Positions 56,433 to 63,053 of a DNA stretch of 64,000 nucleotides are shown here, piece after piece. The stretch's first letter is position 1. Each line of letters starts with the position of its first letter. The DNA comes from Paucihalobacter ruber (GTDB lineage Bacteria; Bacteroidota; Bacteroidia; Flavobacteriales; Flavobacteriaceae). The stretch covers positions 62,001 to 126,000 of the forward strand of contig NZ_VHIQ01000001.1 in assembly GCF_006494535.1 (NCBI RefSeq), in the 5' to 3' direction. The notes beneath the pieces were generated by a model, which saw nothing but the letters and a program-made list of their open reading frames with translations, did not search any database and was not told where the DNA came from. Position numbers and translations under genes: made by a program.

Positions 56433-56464
56433 AGAAATCCTGCCAATCGGCAGGTTTCTTTTTT
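56433..56464 (+). terminator. terminator after yceI
   Basis: CCTGCC-AATC-GGCAGG stem (56439-56454), extended by AGAAA/TTTCT, followed by a run of T. 36 bases after the yceI stop. Confidence 0.9.
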
Positions 56465-56492
56465 TTTGATTTGTTTTAATTAAAATTCGTTT

Positions 56493-56500
56493 TATATTTG
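56493..56500 (+). promoter_or_regulatory. promoter of the trp operon, -7 TATATTTG
   Basis: Perfect TAnnTTTG match 17 bases before the leader-peptide ATG at 56518. Expected transcript start near 56507. Confidence 0.7.
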
Positions 56501-56517
56501 ACCTGCGAATAAAACAC

Positions 56518-56574
56518 ATGAAAACAACAATTAATAATACTTGGTGGTGGTACCCAACAAACTTCGGTTCGTGA
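56518..56574 (+). CDS. trpL: trp leader peptide
   Basis: An 18-codon frame reading MKTTINNTWWWYPTNFGS with three consecutive Trp codons (56542-56550), between the trp promoter and an intrinsic terminator (56607-56635) just before trpE. In attenuation, stalling at the Trp codons when tryptophan is scarce prevents terminator formation. All parts are visible in order: promoter, leader with Trp codons, terminator, trpE. A candidate antiterminator pairs ACAAACTT (56557-56564), just after the Trp codons, with AAGGCTTGT of the terminator arm; this pairing is weak and is inference. Too short for usual gene finders. Confidence 0.88.
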   Translation: MKTTINNTWWWYPTNFGS

Positions 56575-56606
56575 GGCGCATTGCATTGTATTATTCAAAA
56601 TAATAA

Positions 56607-56635
56607 GGCTTGTCAAATCACGACAAGCCTTTTTT
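56607..56635 (+). terminator. trp attenuator terminator
   Basis: GGCTTGTC-AAATCAC-GACAAGCC followed by TTTTTT (56630-56635 approx.), 32 bases after the leader stop and 77 bases before trpE. Confidence 0.9.
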
Positions 56636-56711
56636 AATTCCTGTTAAAAAGGAAAATATAATAACGTATGATGGCAGAAACGAAAGCTTTCAACAAATTT
56701 TGACAAAACAA

Positions 56712-58112
56712 ATGAATACATTCAGTTTACACACTCATTACAAACATATCTTAGCAGACACCATTACACCGGTAAGTATTTATCTCAAAATTAGAGATCA
56801 ATACCCCAACAGCATTTTACTGGAGAGCAGCGATTATCATACCAGCGACAATAGCTTTTCGTACATTTGCTTTAACCCCATTGCTTCCATAGAAGTTAAA
56901 CATGAGAAAATCTTTCAGTCCTTCCCCGACGGTAGTTTTGAAATTGGCGATACTACAAACGTAGATGTAGTAACTGAAATTCACAAATTCACACAACGTT
57001 TCAAAGTACATTCCGAAGCTACTTTTAAATTTATCAACAATGGTATTTTTGGTTTCACGGCTTACGATGCGGTTAAATATTTTGAAGATATTGATATTTC
57101 AAAAAAACCAAATCATCTCGACATACCAGATATCTATTACGCCGTTTACCAAAACATCATAGCCATTAATCATTTTAAAAACGAAGCTTATATCTTTGCG
57201 CATTGTTTTGATACAGAGCACAATTTAGAGGATATTTTGCAGCTCATTCAATCAAAAAATTATCCAAGTTACGAGTTCAGCACGCATGGTGAACCAAGCT
57301 CTAACCTCACTGATGATGCGTACATAGAACTGGTAAACAAAGCCAAAAAACACTGTAATCGCGGCGATGTCTTTCAACTGGTATTATCGCGTAAATTTTC
57401 TCAAGATTTTAAAGGCGACGAGTTCAATGTTTACCGCGCCTTGCGAAGTATCAATCCGTCGCCCTATCTGTTCTACTTTGACTACGGCAATTTTAAAATA
57501 TTTGGCAGCTCACCAGAGGCACAGCTAATTGTAAACGAAGGTCTTGCCGAAATTCACCCTATTGCCGGTACTTTTAAACGCACCGGTAATGACGAGCAAG
57601 ACGCCGAATTGGCTAAAAAACTCACCGCCGATAAAAAAGAAAACAGCGAGCACGTGATGTTGGTGGACCTGGCCCGAAACGATTTGAGCAGACACGGCAG
57701 CCAAGTAACTGTGAATACCTATCGCGAAGTGCAATATTTCTCACATGTGATTCACCTGGTAAGTAAAGTCACTGCTAAAAAACACACTGAAAGTTCTACC
57801 ATGCAAGTGGTAGCCGACACTTTTCCGGCAGGAACATTAAGCGGTGCTCCCAAACACATGGCTATGCAGCTTATTGAAAGATATGAAAACACCAGTAGGG
57901 AATTTTATGGCGGTGCCATTGGTTTTATGGATTTTAACGGCAATTACAACCACGCCATCATGATAAGAACTTTTTTAAGTAAAAACCATCAATTGCACTG
58001 GCAAGCCGGCGCCGGTTTGGTAGCCAAATCCAATCCAAACGACGAATTACAGGAAGTATTTAACAAATTGGGCGCCTTAACCAAAGCCATTGAACTAGCA
58101 AAAGATATTTAA
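56712..58112 (+). CDS. trpE: anthranilate synthase component I
   Basis: 466 residues from ATG 56712. A longer frame beginning with TTG at 56610 starts inside the attenuator terminator and cannot be right. Makes anthranilate from chorismate with TrpG. Seen: the N-terminal LLES motif (feedback site, LLESSDYHTSDNSFSYI) and the chorismate-binding part: GDVFQLVLSRKF, IAGTFKRTG, AKLTADKKENSEHVMLVDLARNDL, FPAGTLSGAPK and QAGAGLVAKSNP. First gene of trpEGDCFBA; trpG starts one base after its stop. Confidence 0.97.
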   Translation: MNTFSLHTHYKHILADTITPVSIYLKIRDQYPNSILLESSDYHTSDNSFSYICFNPIASIEVKHEKIFQSFPDGSFEIGDTTNVDVVTEIHKFTQRFKVHSEATFKFINNGIFGFTAYDAVKYFEDIDISKKPNHLDIPDIYYAVYQNIIAINHFKNEAYIFAHCFDTEHNLEDILQLIQSKNYPSYEFSTHGEPSSNLTDDAYIELVNKAKKHCNRGDVFQLVLSRKFSQDFKGDEFNVYRALRSINPSPYLFYFDYGNFKIFGSSPEAQLIVNEGLAEIHPIAGTFKRTGNDEQDAELAKKLTADKKENSEHVMLVDLARNDLSRHGSQVTVNTYREVQYFSHVIHLVSKVTAKKHTESSTMQVVADTFPAGTLSGAPKHMAMQLIERYENTSREFYGGAIGFMDFNGNYNHAIMIRTFLSKNHQLHWQAGAGLVAKSNPNDELQEVFNKLGALTKAIELAKDI

Positions 58113-58113
58113 T

Positions 58114-58683
58114 ATGAACGTATTAGTTATAGATAATTACGACAGCTTTACCTACAATTTGGTGCATTACCTGCAGGATTTAGGTTGCCACGTTACCGTT
58201 AAGCGTAACGATCAGCTTAATCTGGAAGATGTTAAACCTTTCGATAAAATATTGTTGTCACCCGGTCCGGGTATTCCTGATGAAGCAGGATTGCTAAAAC
58301 CCATTATTAAAACCTACGCCGCCACCAAAAGTATTTTGGGTGTTTGCCTCGGGCAGCAAGCCATTGGAGAAGTTTTTGGTGGCAGTTTAACCAATCTCGA
58401 CGAAGTGTTTCACGGCGTGGCCACAAAAGTGCACATCACTGTTGATGATGAGTCGCTTTTTAAAGACTTGGACAAAACCATTGAAGTGGGTCGTTACCAT
58501 TCTTGGGTAGTCGATGCTAACTTACCGGATGTACTGGAAGCTACTTCCTTTGATGACAACGGACAAGTAATGTCGTTACGCCATAAAACATTTGACATTA
58601 AAGGGGTACAATACCACCCGGAGTCGGTTTTAACACCACAGGGCAAACAAATATTAAAAAACTGGATAGAACATAAAGCATGA
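58114..58683 (+). CDS. trpG: anthranilate synthase component II (glutamine amidotransferase)
   Basis: A 189-residue class I glutamine amidotransferase that hands ammonia to TrpE. Cys78 in GVCLGQQ is the nucleophile; the His and Glu are in GVQYHPESVL. LLSPGPGIPDEAG forms the oxyanion loop. It may also serve para-aminobenzoate synthesis in bacteria with only one such subunit; no pabA is seen here. Overlaps trpD by four bases. Confidence 0.96.
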   Translation: MNVLVIDNYDSFTYNLVHYLQDLGCHVTVKRNDQLNLEDVKPFDKILLSPGPGIPDEAGLLKPIIKTYAATKSILGVCLGQQAIGEVFGGSLTNLDEVFHGVATKVHITVDDESLFKDLDKTIEVGRYHSWVVDANLPDVLEATSFDDNGQVMSLRHKTFDIKGVQYHPESVLTPQGKQILKNWIEHKA

Positions 58684-59675
58684 AAGCCATACTTAACAGA
58701 CTGATCAATCACGAAAGCATTTCGAGCGAAGAGGCCAAAGAAGTTTTGGTCAATATTTCAAAAGGAGCTTATAACCAGAGTCAGATTGCCTCTTTTCTCA
58801 CGGTTTATATGATGCGCAACATTACCCTTCAAGAACTTAGGGGGTTTAGAGAAGCACTGCTGGAACTTTGTATTCCGGTGGATTTATCAGATTACAACAC
58901 CATCGATTTGTGTGGTACAGGTGGCGATGGAAAAGATACGTTTAATATTTCAACACTCGCTTCGTTTGTAACGGCGGGCGCGGGAATTCACGTGGCTAAG
59001 CACGGTAATTACGGGGTGTCTTCGGCTTGTGGCTCTTCAAATGTCATGGAATATCTGGGAGTGAAATTTTCAAACAATCCCGATTTTTTAAAATTAAGCA
59101 TAGAAAAAGCCGGTATTTGTATTTTACATGCACCGCTATTTCATCCTGCCATGAAAAATGTGGCACCCATAAGACGTGAGTTAGGTGTGAAAACTTTTTT
59201 TAACATGTTGGGTCCAATGGTAAATCCGGCCTTTCCCAACAACCAAATGGTTGGTGTATTTAATTTAGAATTGCTAAGGCTTTATGCCTATTTATATCAA
59301 AACACCAACATTAACTATAGTATTGTACATGCGCTGGACGGCTATGACGAAATTTCGCTCACCGGAAACACCAAAATCGTCACCAATCGCCAGGAACAAA
59401 TGCTTTCACCCCAAGATCTAGGATTAGACAACCTTGACCAAAATAGCATTCACGGCGGCAATTCTATTGAAAGTGCCGCTAAGATATTTTTAAATGTTAT
59501 AAGCGGTCATGGCACCGAAGCACAACAAAATGTGGTTTGTGCCAATGCAGGTTTGGCCATTGCCACGGTTAAAGGCATGTCGCATCGGGACGGCTTCGAA
59601 CTGGCCAAAGAAAGTTTAATCTCAGGCAAAGCCAAAAAAAGTTTAGAAACACTTATTCAATTAAGCAAGAATTAA
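58680..59675 (+). CDS. trpD: anthranilate phosphoribosyltransferase
   Basis: A 331-residue enzyme that joins anthranilate and PRPP. LCGTGGDGKDTFNIST is the PRPP-binding loop and KHGNYGVSSACGSSNVMEYLG the anthranilate site; GPMVNPAFPNNQMVGVF follows. Starts by four-base overlap with trpG and ends directly before trpC, so translation is tightly coupled. Confidence 0.97.
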   Translation: MKAILNRLINHESISSEEAKEVLVNISKGAYNQSQIASFLTVYMMRNITLQELRGFREALLELCIPVDLSDYNTIDLCGTGGDGKDTFNISTLASFVTAGAGIHVAKHGNYGVSSACGSSNVMEYLGVKFSNNPDFLKLSIEKAGICILHAPLFHPAMKNVAPIRRELGVKTFFNMLGPMVNPAFPNNQMVGVFNLELLRLYAYLYQNTNINYSIVHALDGYDEISLTGNTKIVTNRQEQMLSPQDLGLDNLDQNSIHGGNSIESAAKIFLNVISGHGTEAQQNVVCANAGLAIATVKGMSHRDGFELAKESLISGKAKKSLETLIQLSKN

Positions 59676-60461
59676 ATGACCATTTTAGATAAAATCATCT
59701 TTGACAAACACAAGGAAGTGGCGCTTAAAAAGCAACTGATTCCGGTAAAACAATTGGAAGCCTCTGTATTGTTTAGCAGAAACACCTTGTCGGTTACTCA
59801 GCGTATTAAAGAAAGTGACACCGGTATTATTGCCGAATACAAAAGGCGTTCGCCATCAAAAGACACCATTAACAATGCCTTAAACGTTTACGATGTTGCG
59901 CAAGGCTATGAGCAAGCAGGCGTTTGTGCCATGAGCGTTTTAACCGACGGGAAATACTTTGGTGGTAGCCTTGACGATTTACTATTGGCACGCGCCAATT
60001 GCCAATTGCCGTTATTGAGAAAAGATTTTGTTATTGACCCTTATCAAATTTTAGAGGCCAAAGCCTACGGTGCCAACATTATATTACTGATTGCAGCTGT
60101 TTTATCGAAGGATGACATTACTAATCTTTCCAAATTTGCCAAAAGCCTAGATTTAGAGGTATTGCTGGAAGTTCATAATTTAGACGAACTACATAAATCC
60201 ATCATGCCAAGTCTTGATTTGATTGGTGTTAACAACCGAAATCTTAAAACTTTTGAAGTCAGTTTAAACACCAGCAAAGAATTAAGCACCGAAATACCCG
60301 ACGACTTTGTGAAAATTTCAGAAAGCGGCATTAGTAATATTGAAGCCATCAAGGAATTAAAAACTTACGGCTATCAGGGTTTTTTAATAGGAGAAAACTT
60401 TATGAAAACCAACGATGCCGGCGAAAGTGCTGCAACCTTTATCAAAAATCTCAAGTCATGA
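59676..60461 (+). CDS. trpC: indole-3-glycerol-phosphate synthase
   Basis: A 261-residue TIM barrel. IIAEYKRRSPSKDTI carries the catalytic Lys, followed by MSVLTDGKYFGGS, LLRKDFVIDPYQI, LEVLLEVHN, GVNNRNLKTFEV and SESGI. A stand-alone protein, not fused with TrpF as in E. coli. Starts immediately after the trpD stop; overlaps trpF by four bases. Confidence 0.97.
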   Translation: MTILDKIIFDKHKEVALKKQLIPVKQLEASVLFSRNTLSVTQRIKESDTGIIAEYKRRSPSKDTINNALNVYDVAQGYEQAGVCAMSVLTDGKYFGGSLDDLLLARANCQLPLLRKDFVIDPYQILEAKAYGANIILLIAAVLSKDDITNLSKFAKSLDLEVLLEVHNLDELHKSIMPSLDLIGVNNRNLKTFEVSLNTSKELSTEIPDDFVKISESGISNIEAIKELKTYGYQGFLIGENFMKTNDAGESAATFIKNLKS

Positions 60462-61096
60462 AGTTAAAAATCTGCGGCATGAAATATCCCGAAAATATGA
60501 TTGAGGTAGCATCTGTTGCACCAGATTATATGGGCTTTATTTTCTACGAAAAATCGTCGCGTTATTTCACAGGGACCATACCACAATTACCATCAAGCAT
60601 TAAAAAAGTGGGGGTTTTTGTAAAAGCTTCAGATACTGAGATTATTCAAAAAATAAACTATTATAGATTAGATGCCGTTCAATTGCACGGCGATGAAACG
60701 CCTATGTTTTGCAAAGCCCTACGGCATCAGCTTAAAAGAACATTCCCATTAAAAACTATCGAGATAATTAAAGTATTTTCAGTTGGTAACACCTTTAATT
60801 TTGATCAATTAATGCCATTTCAAGATCATTGCGATTACTTTTTATTTGACACCAAAGGAAAGCTACCCGGTGGAAACGGGGAAACTTTTAACTGGCAACT
60901 ATTAGAACATTACACTTTTACCAAACCTTACTTTTTAAGTGGCGGGATTGGATTAGAAAATATTGAAGCTTTAGAAAAATTTAAAAATAAGGCCATTTCA
61001 AAATATTGTTACGCCATTGATGTGAATAGTAAATTTGAAATCGAACCAGGACTAAAAGACAAAGAAAAATTACAACAATTAAAAAACACGCTATGA
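60458..61096 (+). CDS. trpF: phosphoribosylanthranilate isomerase
   Basis: A 212-residue TIM barrel. [15 protein letters not shown] has the catalytic Cys (ICGM), [11 protein letters not shown] and KVGVFV follow, DAVQLHGDE and [18 protein letters not shown] hold the catalytic Asp and the phosphate site, and [12 protein letters not shown] closes. Overlaps trpC before and trpB after by four bases each. Confidence 0.96.
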
Positions 61097-62274
61097 GTTA
61101 CAACGTTAATGAAAAAGGTTATTACGGCGAATTTGGCGGTGCCTACATCCCCGAAATGCTCTACCCCAACATTGAAGAGCTACGCCAAAATTATTTAAAA
61201 ATCACCGCTGAACCTTCGTTTCAAGAAGAATTTCACGCTTTGTTAAAAGATTACGTAGGCAGACCAACGCCTTTGTATTACGCCAAGCGGCTTAGCGAAA
61301 AATTCAACACGAAGATTTATTTAAAACGCGAAGATTTAAACCATACCGGTGCACACAAAGTAAACAACACTATTGGCCAAATACTATTGGCGCAACGTTT
61401 GGGTAAAACCCGTATTATTGCTGAAACCGGTGCCGGACAACACGGCGTTGCTACTGCCACCGTTTGTGCCTTGATGGGCATTGAATGCGTGGTGTATATG
61501 GGTGAAGTAGATATTGCGCGACAAGCACCCAACGTAGCCCGAATGAAAATGTTAGGCGCCAAAGTAGTACCGGCAACGTCGGGCAGTAAAACCTTAAAAG
61601 ACGCCACCAACGAAGCCATGCGCGACTGGATTAACAATCCTGTTGATACCCATTATATTGTTGGTTCGGTGGTTGGTCCACACCCGTATCCCGATATGGT
61701 AGCGCGGTTTCAGGCGGTAGTTTCAGAAGAAATTAAATGGCAGTTACGAGAAAAAGAAGGTCGTAGCAACCCAGACTATGTAATGGCTTGTGTTGGTGGT
61801 GGTAGCAATGCCGCAGGCGCTTTTTATCATTATTTAGATGAAAAAGACGTGAAGCTCATTGCTGTTGAAGCCGCGGGCAAAGGCGTTGATACCGGCGAAA
61901 GTGCCGCAACCTCGATCTTGGGCAAAGAAGGCATTATTCACGGAAGTAAAACCCTGTTGATGCAAACCCACGACGGCCAAATAACTGAACCATATTCTAT
62001 TTCGGCCGGTTTAGATTATCCCGGTGTTGGCCCTATGCATGCCCATTTATTTAAAACCGGCAGGGCCGAATTTATAGCTATAACCGATGACGATGCCATG
62101 ACCTCCGGATTGGAATTAAGTCAGTTGGAAGGCATCATTCCGGCGATAGAAACCTCGCATGCGCTGGCAGTGTTCAATTACAAAAAATTCAAACCAAACG
62201 ATGTTATAGTGATTAATCTTTCTGGCCGTGGCGACAAAGATTTAGATACCTATATTAAATATTTTAAGCTTTAA
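61093..62274 (+). CDS. trpB: tryptophan synthase beta chain
   Basis: A 393-residue PLP enzyme that condenses indole with serine. Lys89 in HTGAHKVNN binds [15 protein letters not shown] is the substrate-binding loop, and GGGSNAAG the phosphate cradle. Normal-length TrpB1 type, working with TrpA. Followed after 14 bases by trpA. Confidence 0.98.
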
Positions 62275-62288
62275 TTATTTAAGAAGTA

Positions 62289-63053
62289 ATGAACAGAATT
62301 ATACAAAAACTACAGGAACCTCAAAAACTGCTGTCTATTTACTTCACAGCAGGTTATCCGGAATTAAACGATACAGTCACCATTATTAAATCTCTGGAAG
62401 ACAACGGTGTTGATATGATTGAAATTGGCTTGCCTTTTAGCGATCCTTTGGCAGACGGACCGACCATTCAGGACAGTTCAACGGCAGCTTTGAAAAACGG
62501 CATGAGCAGTAACTTGTTGTTTGATCAGTTGACCAATATCAGAGAAATCGTGAAAATTCCACTAATCATTATGGGGTATTTTAATCCAATATTGCAATTT
62601 GGGGTAGAAGACTTTTGTAAAAAGTGTCAGGAAGTGGGCATAGACGGTTTAATTATCCCCGATTTGCCGGCCGATGTTTACAACGAACACTACCGTCATA
62701 TTTTCGAAAAATACGGCCTTATCAATATTTTCCTGATTACCCCGCAAACTTCGGAAGAGCGCGTTAAATTTATCGATGGTATATCGAACGGATTTATCTA
62801 CATGGTGAGTAGCGCTAGCGTTACCGGGAGCCAATCAGGCTTTGGTAACGAACAAGAAGCCTATTTTAAACGCATTCACAACATGCAACTTAAGAATCCG
62901 CAAATAGTTGGTTTCGGTATCAAAGACAAAGAAACCTTTACTCAAGCCACGCAATACGCAAAAGGCGCCATTATTGGCAGTGCATTTATTAAAAATCTTA
63001 CGTTTAATGGAGTGAACTCAATAGAACTTTTCACAAAACAATTTAAGGCTTAA
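62289..63053 (+). CDS. trpA: tryptophan synthase alpha chain
   Basis: A 254-residue TIM barrel that releases indole from indole-3-glycerol phosphate. Catalytic Glu45 and Asp56 in MIEIGLPFSDPLADGPTIQ correspond to Glu49 and Asp60 of the E. coli enzyme. GLIIPDLPADVYNEH and GFGIKDKETF follow. Last gene of trpEGDCFBA; no clear terminator hairpin seen right after its stop. Confidence 0.97.
   Translation: MNRIIQKLQEPQKLLSIYFTAGYPELNDTVTIIKSLEDNGVDMIEIGLPFSDPLADGPTIQDSSTAALKNGMSSNLLFDQLTNIREIVKIPLIIMGYFNPILQFGVEDFCKKCQEVGIDGLIIPDLPADVYNEHYRHIFEKYGLINIFLITPQTSEERVKFIDGISNGFIYMVSSASVTGSQSGFGNEQEAYFKRIHNMQLKNPQIVGFGIKDKETFTQATQYAKGAIIGSAFIKNLTFNGVNSIELFTKQFKA

Follow-up and report, generated by a model that had tools for sequence, protein, structure and literature searches.

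The trpL leader of Escherichia coli combines two tandem Trp codons with RNA segments that form a protector, an antiterminator or a terminator, and its stop codon is placed such that a ribosome finishing the leader peptide masks segment 2. The trp operons of Firmicutes are controlled by T-box and TRAP-type systems. A further RNA motif, from Bacteroidetes, was described by Weinberg et al. in 2010 (PMC2864571) as probably cis-regulatory, and it has been noted ahead of the trp operon of Flavobacterium psychrophilum in a 2019 paper (PMC6414381). The window analysed here, a 64-kb stretch of the Paucihalobacter ruber genome, contains a match to the corresponding Rfam family (RF01692, Bacteroid-trp RNA) of 57.1 bits against a gathering score of 49, covering the full model (1-131), and nothing else in the Rfam scan of the window, T-box included, reached its gathering score. 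The element belongs to this catalogued family and its kind is therefore already known. It shares with Bacteroid-trp RNA both sequence and 1:2 hairpin, above the curated cut-off, as well as the arrangement of a Trp-codon leader before trp genes in Bacteroidota. The RF01692 model differs in ending at the 5' arm of the terminator, and so the terminator 3' arm is absent from it, as is the pairing of UCGUGA (56569-56574) with UCACGA (56618-56623). This pairing (the clamp), a putative part of the antiterminator of RF01692 elements that we recognised by comparing leader sequences, is what is new here. A literature search on the antiterminator or on leader-peptide attenuation in Bacteroidota found nothing further; the supplements of Weinberg et al. 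lay outside that search, and the clamp may be drawn there.

A preliminary description of this locus had listed a promoter, an 18-codon leader with three Trp codons, a terminator and trpE, and the window sequence together with a terminator search places all four as described, on the plus strand like the remaining features of the operon and its leader. The predicted promoter (56471-56500) is of the Bacteroidota type, with a -33 element TTG (56471-56473) separated by 19 nt from the -7 element TATATTTG (56493-56500), and transcription would start at about 56504-56506. TAnnTTTG occurs upstream of 151 of the 155 Flavobacteriaceae leaders, compared with 9/155 when shuffled, and is accompanied by a correctly spaced TTG in 125 of them. 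The leader peptide ORF MKTTINNTWWWYPTNFGS (56518-56574, 18 codons, stop UGA) has homologous leaders in about 220 genomes. Its three tandem Trp codons, the control codons (56542-56550), lie in TGGTGGTGG, every column of which reaches 97% identity or more across 157 aligned leaders. Between leader and trpE lies an intrinsic terminator, AAGGCTTGTC-AAATCAC-GACAAGCCTT (56605-56631), followed by a series of T's; the region contains four terminator-like sites where shuffles predict 0.2, and the fold of the whole window leader has a z-score of -3.3. The first gene, trpE (anthranilate synthase component I, 56712-58112), matches NCBIfam TIGR00564 (trpE_most, E 1e-124) with a score below the equivalog cut-off, and its name rests also on the operon context. 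It is followed by trpG, trpD, trpC, trpF, trpB and trpA (58114-63053; NCBIfam matches) in an intact and complete operon of the order trpE-G-D-C-F-B-A.

The warning that an upstream trpE start would clash with the regulatory element proved sound. The longer ORF proposed by an ORF finder, from TTG 56610, begins inside the terminator and was rejected as the gene start, since relatives align at ATG 56712, the position and N-terminus of which agree with theirs. As intergenic terminators are common, it might be argued that this one simply serves the upstream gene and that the small ORF occurs by chance. However, the upstream gene, whose product weakly resembles YceI (the match falls short of the family cut-off), owns a terminator at 56439-56454, the promoter lies in between, and the conservation of the attenuator unit across several families of the phylum already refutes this explanation, to which we attach a negligible likelihood.

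Within the family to which the window belongs, the RF01692 model matches 208 of 299 genomes; the corresponding figures are 35/121 and 66/125 for two other families of the same class (f11 and f12, respectively), which we infer to be Bacteroidales-like. A broad DNA pattern mostly retrieved unrelated phyla, plus named Flavobacteriaceae and one Saprospiraceae leader. Downstream of 208 of the 221 leaders, including all 155 from the window's own family, trpE is found on the same strand. Many leaders in f11 and f12 (e.g. L321-L349) have the trpE start some 1.2-1.35 kb past the terminator, and the operons of these families would then open with a different gene, probably trpB.

Loss of the Trp codons in relatives had been set beforehand as an observation that would count against attenuation. 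What we found in a first set of 131 loci was 126 ATG-started leaders, 124 of them with WWW and two with WW, and five loci in which the leader only appeared to be absent, as these have a GTG or TTG in place of the ATG and still encode WWW. The leaders of Flavobacteriaceae are 13-20 residues long and end in several reading frames, with a variable peptide past the Trp run, while the N-terminal half is conserved (NNTWWW in many members). Such N-terminal conservation might be accounted for by a TnaC-like arrest peptide responding to free tryptophan within the ribosome tunnel instead of to charged tRNA-Trp; nevertheless the three tandem Trp codons, the variability of length, frame and sequence after them, and the fact that the operon is biosynthetic and not degradative make this very unlikely. 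Regulation by a T-box, a TRAP-like protein or some other trans-acting factor, with the small ORF incidental, would have its precedent in the Firmicutes systems mentioned above, but no T-box was matched in the window, and the retention throughout of both the Trp codons and an ATG, GTG or TTG start argues against any trans-acting factor, so that we consider it extremely improbable.

In our view, with a probability of roughly 0.88, the element controls the trp operon by ribosome-mediated transcription attenuation, in which four RNA segments pair in alternative ways. This agrees with the classical attenuation put forward in the preliminary description, which is favoured by the Trp run in nearly all of about 220 leaders and by three predicted, mutually exclusive folds. 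Anatomy, conservation, covariation and the mutual exclusion of the folds were computed; leader translation, ribosome stalling and an effect of tryptophan on readthrough are what we infer, the interchange of ATG, GTG and TTG at one site being an indirect sign of translation. Only 4 of the 155 family leaders are preceded by a Shine-Dalgarno-like sequence, and in most of them the -7 box lies 10-29 nt from the start codon. The layout of Bacteroidota promoters is known, and by this measure the 5' untranslated stretch would be very short or absent. In 29 of the 155, TAnnTTTG lies 10-14 nt ahead of the start codon, and to judge from this spacing their mRNAs may lack a 5' untranslated region entirely or almost entirely. 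This might explain translation of the leader in the absence of Shine-Dalgarno pairing.

Segment 1 of the RNA (56544-56549) falls in the Trp-codon region and pairs with 56579-56584 to form the protector (1:2), as seen both in the fold and in the consensus hairpin of RF01692. Segment 2 consists of a core, the UCGUGA hexamer, which overlaps the leader stop codon and, on the basis of conservation and pairing, constitutes the outer strand of the antiterminator, and of an inner part (56578-56584) that in the folds has two possible partners, the Trp codons (1:2) and, in the antiterminator, the terminator 5' arm at 56608-56613. The antiterminator encloses an A+T-rich hairpin, TATTATT-CAA-AATAATA (56589-56605), which has an equivalent in the folds of relatives. 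Segment 3 is the terminator 5' arm AAGGCTTGTC (56605-56614) and segment 4 the 3' arm GACAAGCCTT (56622-56631), after which a T-run extends to about 56635. UCACGA, the partner of the hexamer, is made up of the last four bases of the terminator loop and the first two of the 3' arm. Pairing of the 3' arm holds in 99.8% of cells over the 221 leaders; in a single leader (L282) the automatic terminator search chose a wrong site, and this was read by eye and excluded from the statistics.

Unconstrained folding of 15 leaders from several families yields three mutually exclusive states, namely the protector, whose 1:2 hairpin holds the Trp codons, the 2:3 antiterminator, in which the outer clamp and the inner pairs to the 5' arm surround the A+T-rich hairpin, and the terminator. 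These folds and the masked folding described below predict that the protector would release segment 2 on stalling, the protector being weaker in the window than in relatives. A conventional arrangement is seen in some leaders of other families: the antiterminator of L161 (family f2) has the textbook form of 10 pairs to the 5' arm alone, and that of L162 (family f3) has 8 pairs to the 5' arm and a short outer part, with L163 (also f3) likewise conventional. The clamp is thus not universal in the phylum. In some leaders of f11 and f12 (L296, L302, L317, L331, L339 and L346) the reading frame extends about 30 nt beyond the conserved hexamer before the stop, and the ribosome would therefore finish inside the A+T-rich hairpin.

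Each base of UCGUGA is 96-99% conserved whatever the reading frame: TCGTGA contains the stop in 18-codon leaders, follows a TAA in 15-codon leaders and is located inside the last codons of 20-codon leaders. Its offset from the stop ranges from -8 to +11 in Flavobacteriaceae, whereas in almost every leader it begins 26-31 nt past the first Trp codon, wherever the stop lies. From the alignment, this constant distance is what would be expected if the hexamer must stay clear of the stalled ribosome. The terminator loop in turn ends in TCAC, followed by GAC, the exact complement of TCGTGA. At least six contiguous clamp pairs can be formed in 151 of 157 leaders, in comparison with about 7% of shuffled controls, and by column counts over these 157 leaders the six clamp positions show 96-99% standard pairs. 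The occurrence of TCGTGA N20-50 TCACGA just once in the organism's own genome was given no weight, since unrelated 12-base patterns likewise turn up just a few times.

Covariation of terminator and antiterminator was among the checks suggested in the preliminary description, and conserved or covarying pairing was indeed found in these two and in the protector. A seven-pair helix that includes the clamp is paired in 92.7% of cells over 221 leaders, and in 110 cells both partners are changed; 500 shuffles never attained its paired fraction, its double-change count or its covariation score, and slid registers gave 20-59% paired (58.5% at most) and 0-11 doubly changed cells. Related sequences inflate such cell counts, and individual independent changes therefore carry more weight than the totals. 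These comprise UCGUAA/UUACGA in f11 and f12, UCGCAA/UUGCGA in a single Flavobacteriaceae genome (L111), UCGUAG/CUGCGG in L337 and L341, and CCGGGG/CCCCGG in a Saprospiraceae genome (L252). The f11 and f12 strand is mostly UCGUAAG, facing CUUACGA, CUUGCGA or CUUGCGG in the loop, and a subset of f11 with loops ending in CCTGCGA has only about five clamp pairs. Exchange of segments 2 and 3 between clades gave a mixed outcome, segment 2 of f11 forming, on average, a better duplex with the Flavobacteriaceae segment 3 than with that of f11 itself; overall duplex strength masks the register between some clades in this test, which was replaced by the fixed-register test.

The main rival reading of the clamp is that the attenuator is classical and that UCGUGA pairs with the loop of a terminator already formed, in a pseudoknot or kissing contact that would strengthen or time termination instead of opposing it. 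Clean covariation lies mainly at the loop positions 56617-56620, where the bases would be free in the formed terminator, as this reading would have it, and the two 3'-arm pairs are constrained by the terminator too. On the other hand, the U and C at 56569-56570, although under no frame constraint, show 96-98% conservation and complement a G and an A in the 3' arm; the full helix is for this reason incompatible with a closed terminator. Moreover, inner pairs to the 5' arm accompany the clamp in most folds, and with a stalled ribosome masked folding gives the clamp and no terminator. We judge the pseudoknot unlikely.

To model the moving ribosome, the bases that it covers were forced to remain unpaired and the 3' arm was lengthened stepwise. 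When 5 nt of the 3' arm have been made, the mean terminator probability over 221 leaders is 0.11 for a ribosome stalled at the first Trp codon and 0.02 at the third, as against 0.94 for a ribosome at the stop codon and 0.73 with no ribosome. A ribosome on the Trp codons favours the clamp until approximately 6-7 nt of the 3' arm have emerged, and one at the stop favours the terminator from 4-5 nt onwards; for the window without a ribosome, termination becomes strong only once 5-6 nt are out. Scrambling of the window hexamer raises the terminator probability from 0-0.01 to 0.49-0.76 (5-6 nt), and most of the antiterminator advantage is lost. Once the RNA is full-length, no other fold is as stable as the terminator in any of the ribosome states, and antitermination must consequently be kinetic.

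A mechanism can be proposed along these lines. When charged tRNA-Trp is scarce, the ribosome would stall at the Trp codons (56542-56550) and leave segment 2 free, which begins 27 nt past the first of them. While the terminator is being synthesised, UCGUGA would pair with UCACGA (56618-56623) and the bases that follow would pair with the 5' arm. Once the clamp had formed, the terminator would come too late to close, and trpE would be transcribed. When tryptophan is ample, the ribosome would proceed to the stop codon and cover UCGUGA, allowing the terminator to close, and where no ribosome is present the 1:2 protector would sequester segment 2, such that termination wins again. We think it somewhat probable that Bacteroidota possess a clamp antiterminator of this type, in which a segment at the leader stop, whatever its reading frame, pairs with the terminator loop and 3' arm, the next bases hold the 5' arm, and the outcome is settled as the final few nucleotides of the terminator are made; together with near-leaderless, Shine-Dalgarno-free translation of the leader this would represent an undescribed variant of classical attenuation. 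The earlier conjecture that coupling between leader translation and hairpin choice may differ in Bacteroidota needs correcting, in that the four-segment logic is the classical one and the antiterminator alone is unusual.

In common with E. coli trpL, the element has a leader peptide, the protector, antiterminator and terminator states, and a stop codon that lets a terminating ribosome mask segment 2. It differs in having three Trp codons as opposed to two, in doing without a Shine-Dalgarno sequence, and in an antiterminator that runs through the terminator loop into the 3' arm, and no Rfam relation between the two was found. The pairing scheme fills a gap in a catalogued RNA family by proposing its antiterminator, in the form of a precise, testable base-pair model. 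Ribosome-mediated attenuation appears to be widespread in Bacteroidota, a phylum that makes little use of Shine-Dalgarno sequences and includes many gut and environmental species; this is indicated for trp by covariation and for his by leader anatomy.

In the same genome MNLNQLHHHHSHTGNQAR, a leader of 18 codons with a terminator after it, is located about 235 nt upstream of hisG (L350, G000:C18). It follows the logic of the His_leader family (RF00514), against which it scores 41.5 bits (cut-off 49); a scan of eight hisG loci assigned none to an Rfam family at cut-off, this being the one locus with a His_leader score of that size. Two sites in the genome that fit a His-run pattern were discarded as not being leaders, the pattern being too strict for the real HHHH leader, and no leader was found at ilvD of this genome. 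Judging from the sequences, there seems to be a Bacteroidota histidine attenuator family that is not catalogued: His-rich leaders with a terminator precede hisG in 28 of 31 loci of the family. The hisG leader of this genome differs from the trp element in amino acid, operon and locus, and also in its conventional antiterminator against the 5' arm; in most of the his loci a leader segment, TCAAGCG or TCAGGCG, complements the terminator 5' arm CGTTTGA or CGTCTGA.
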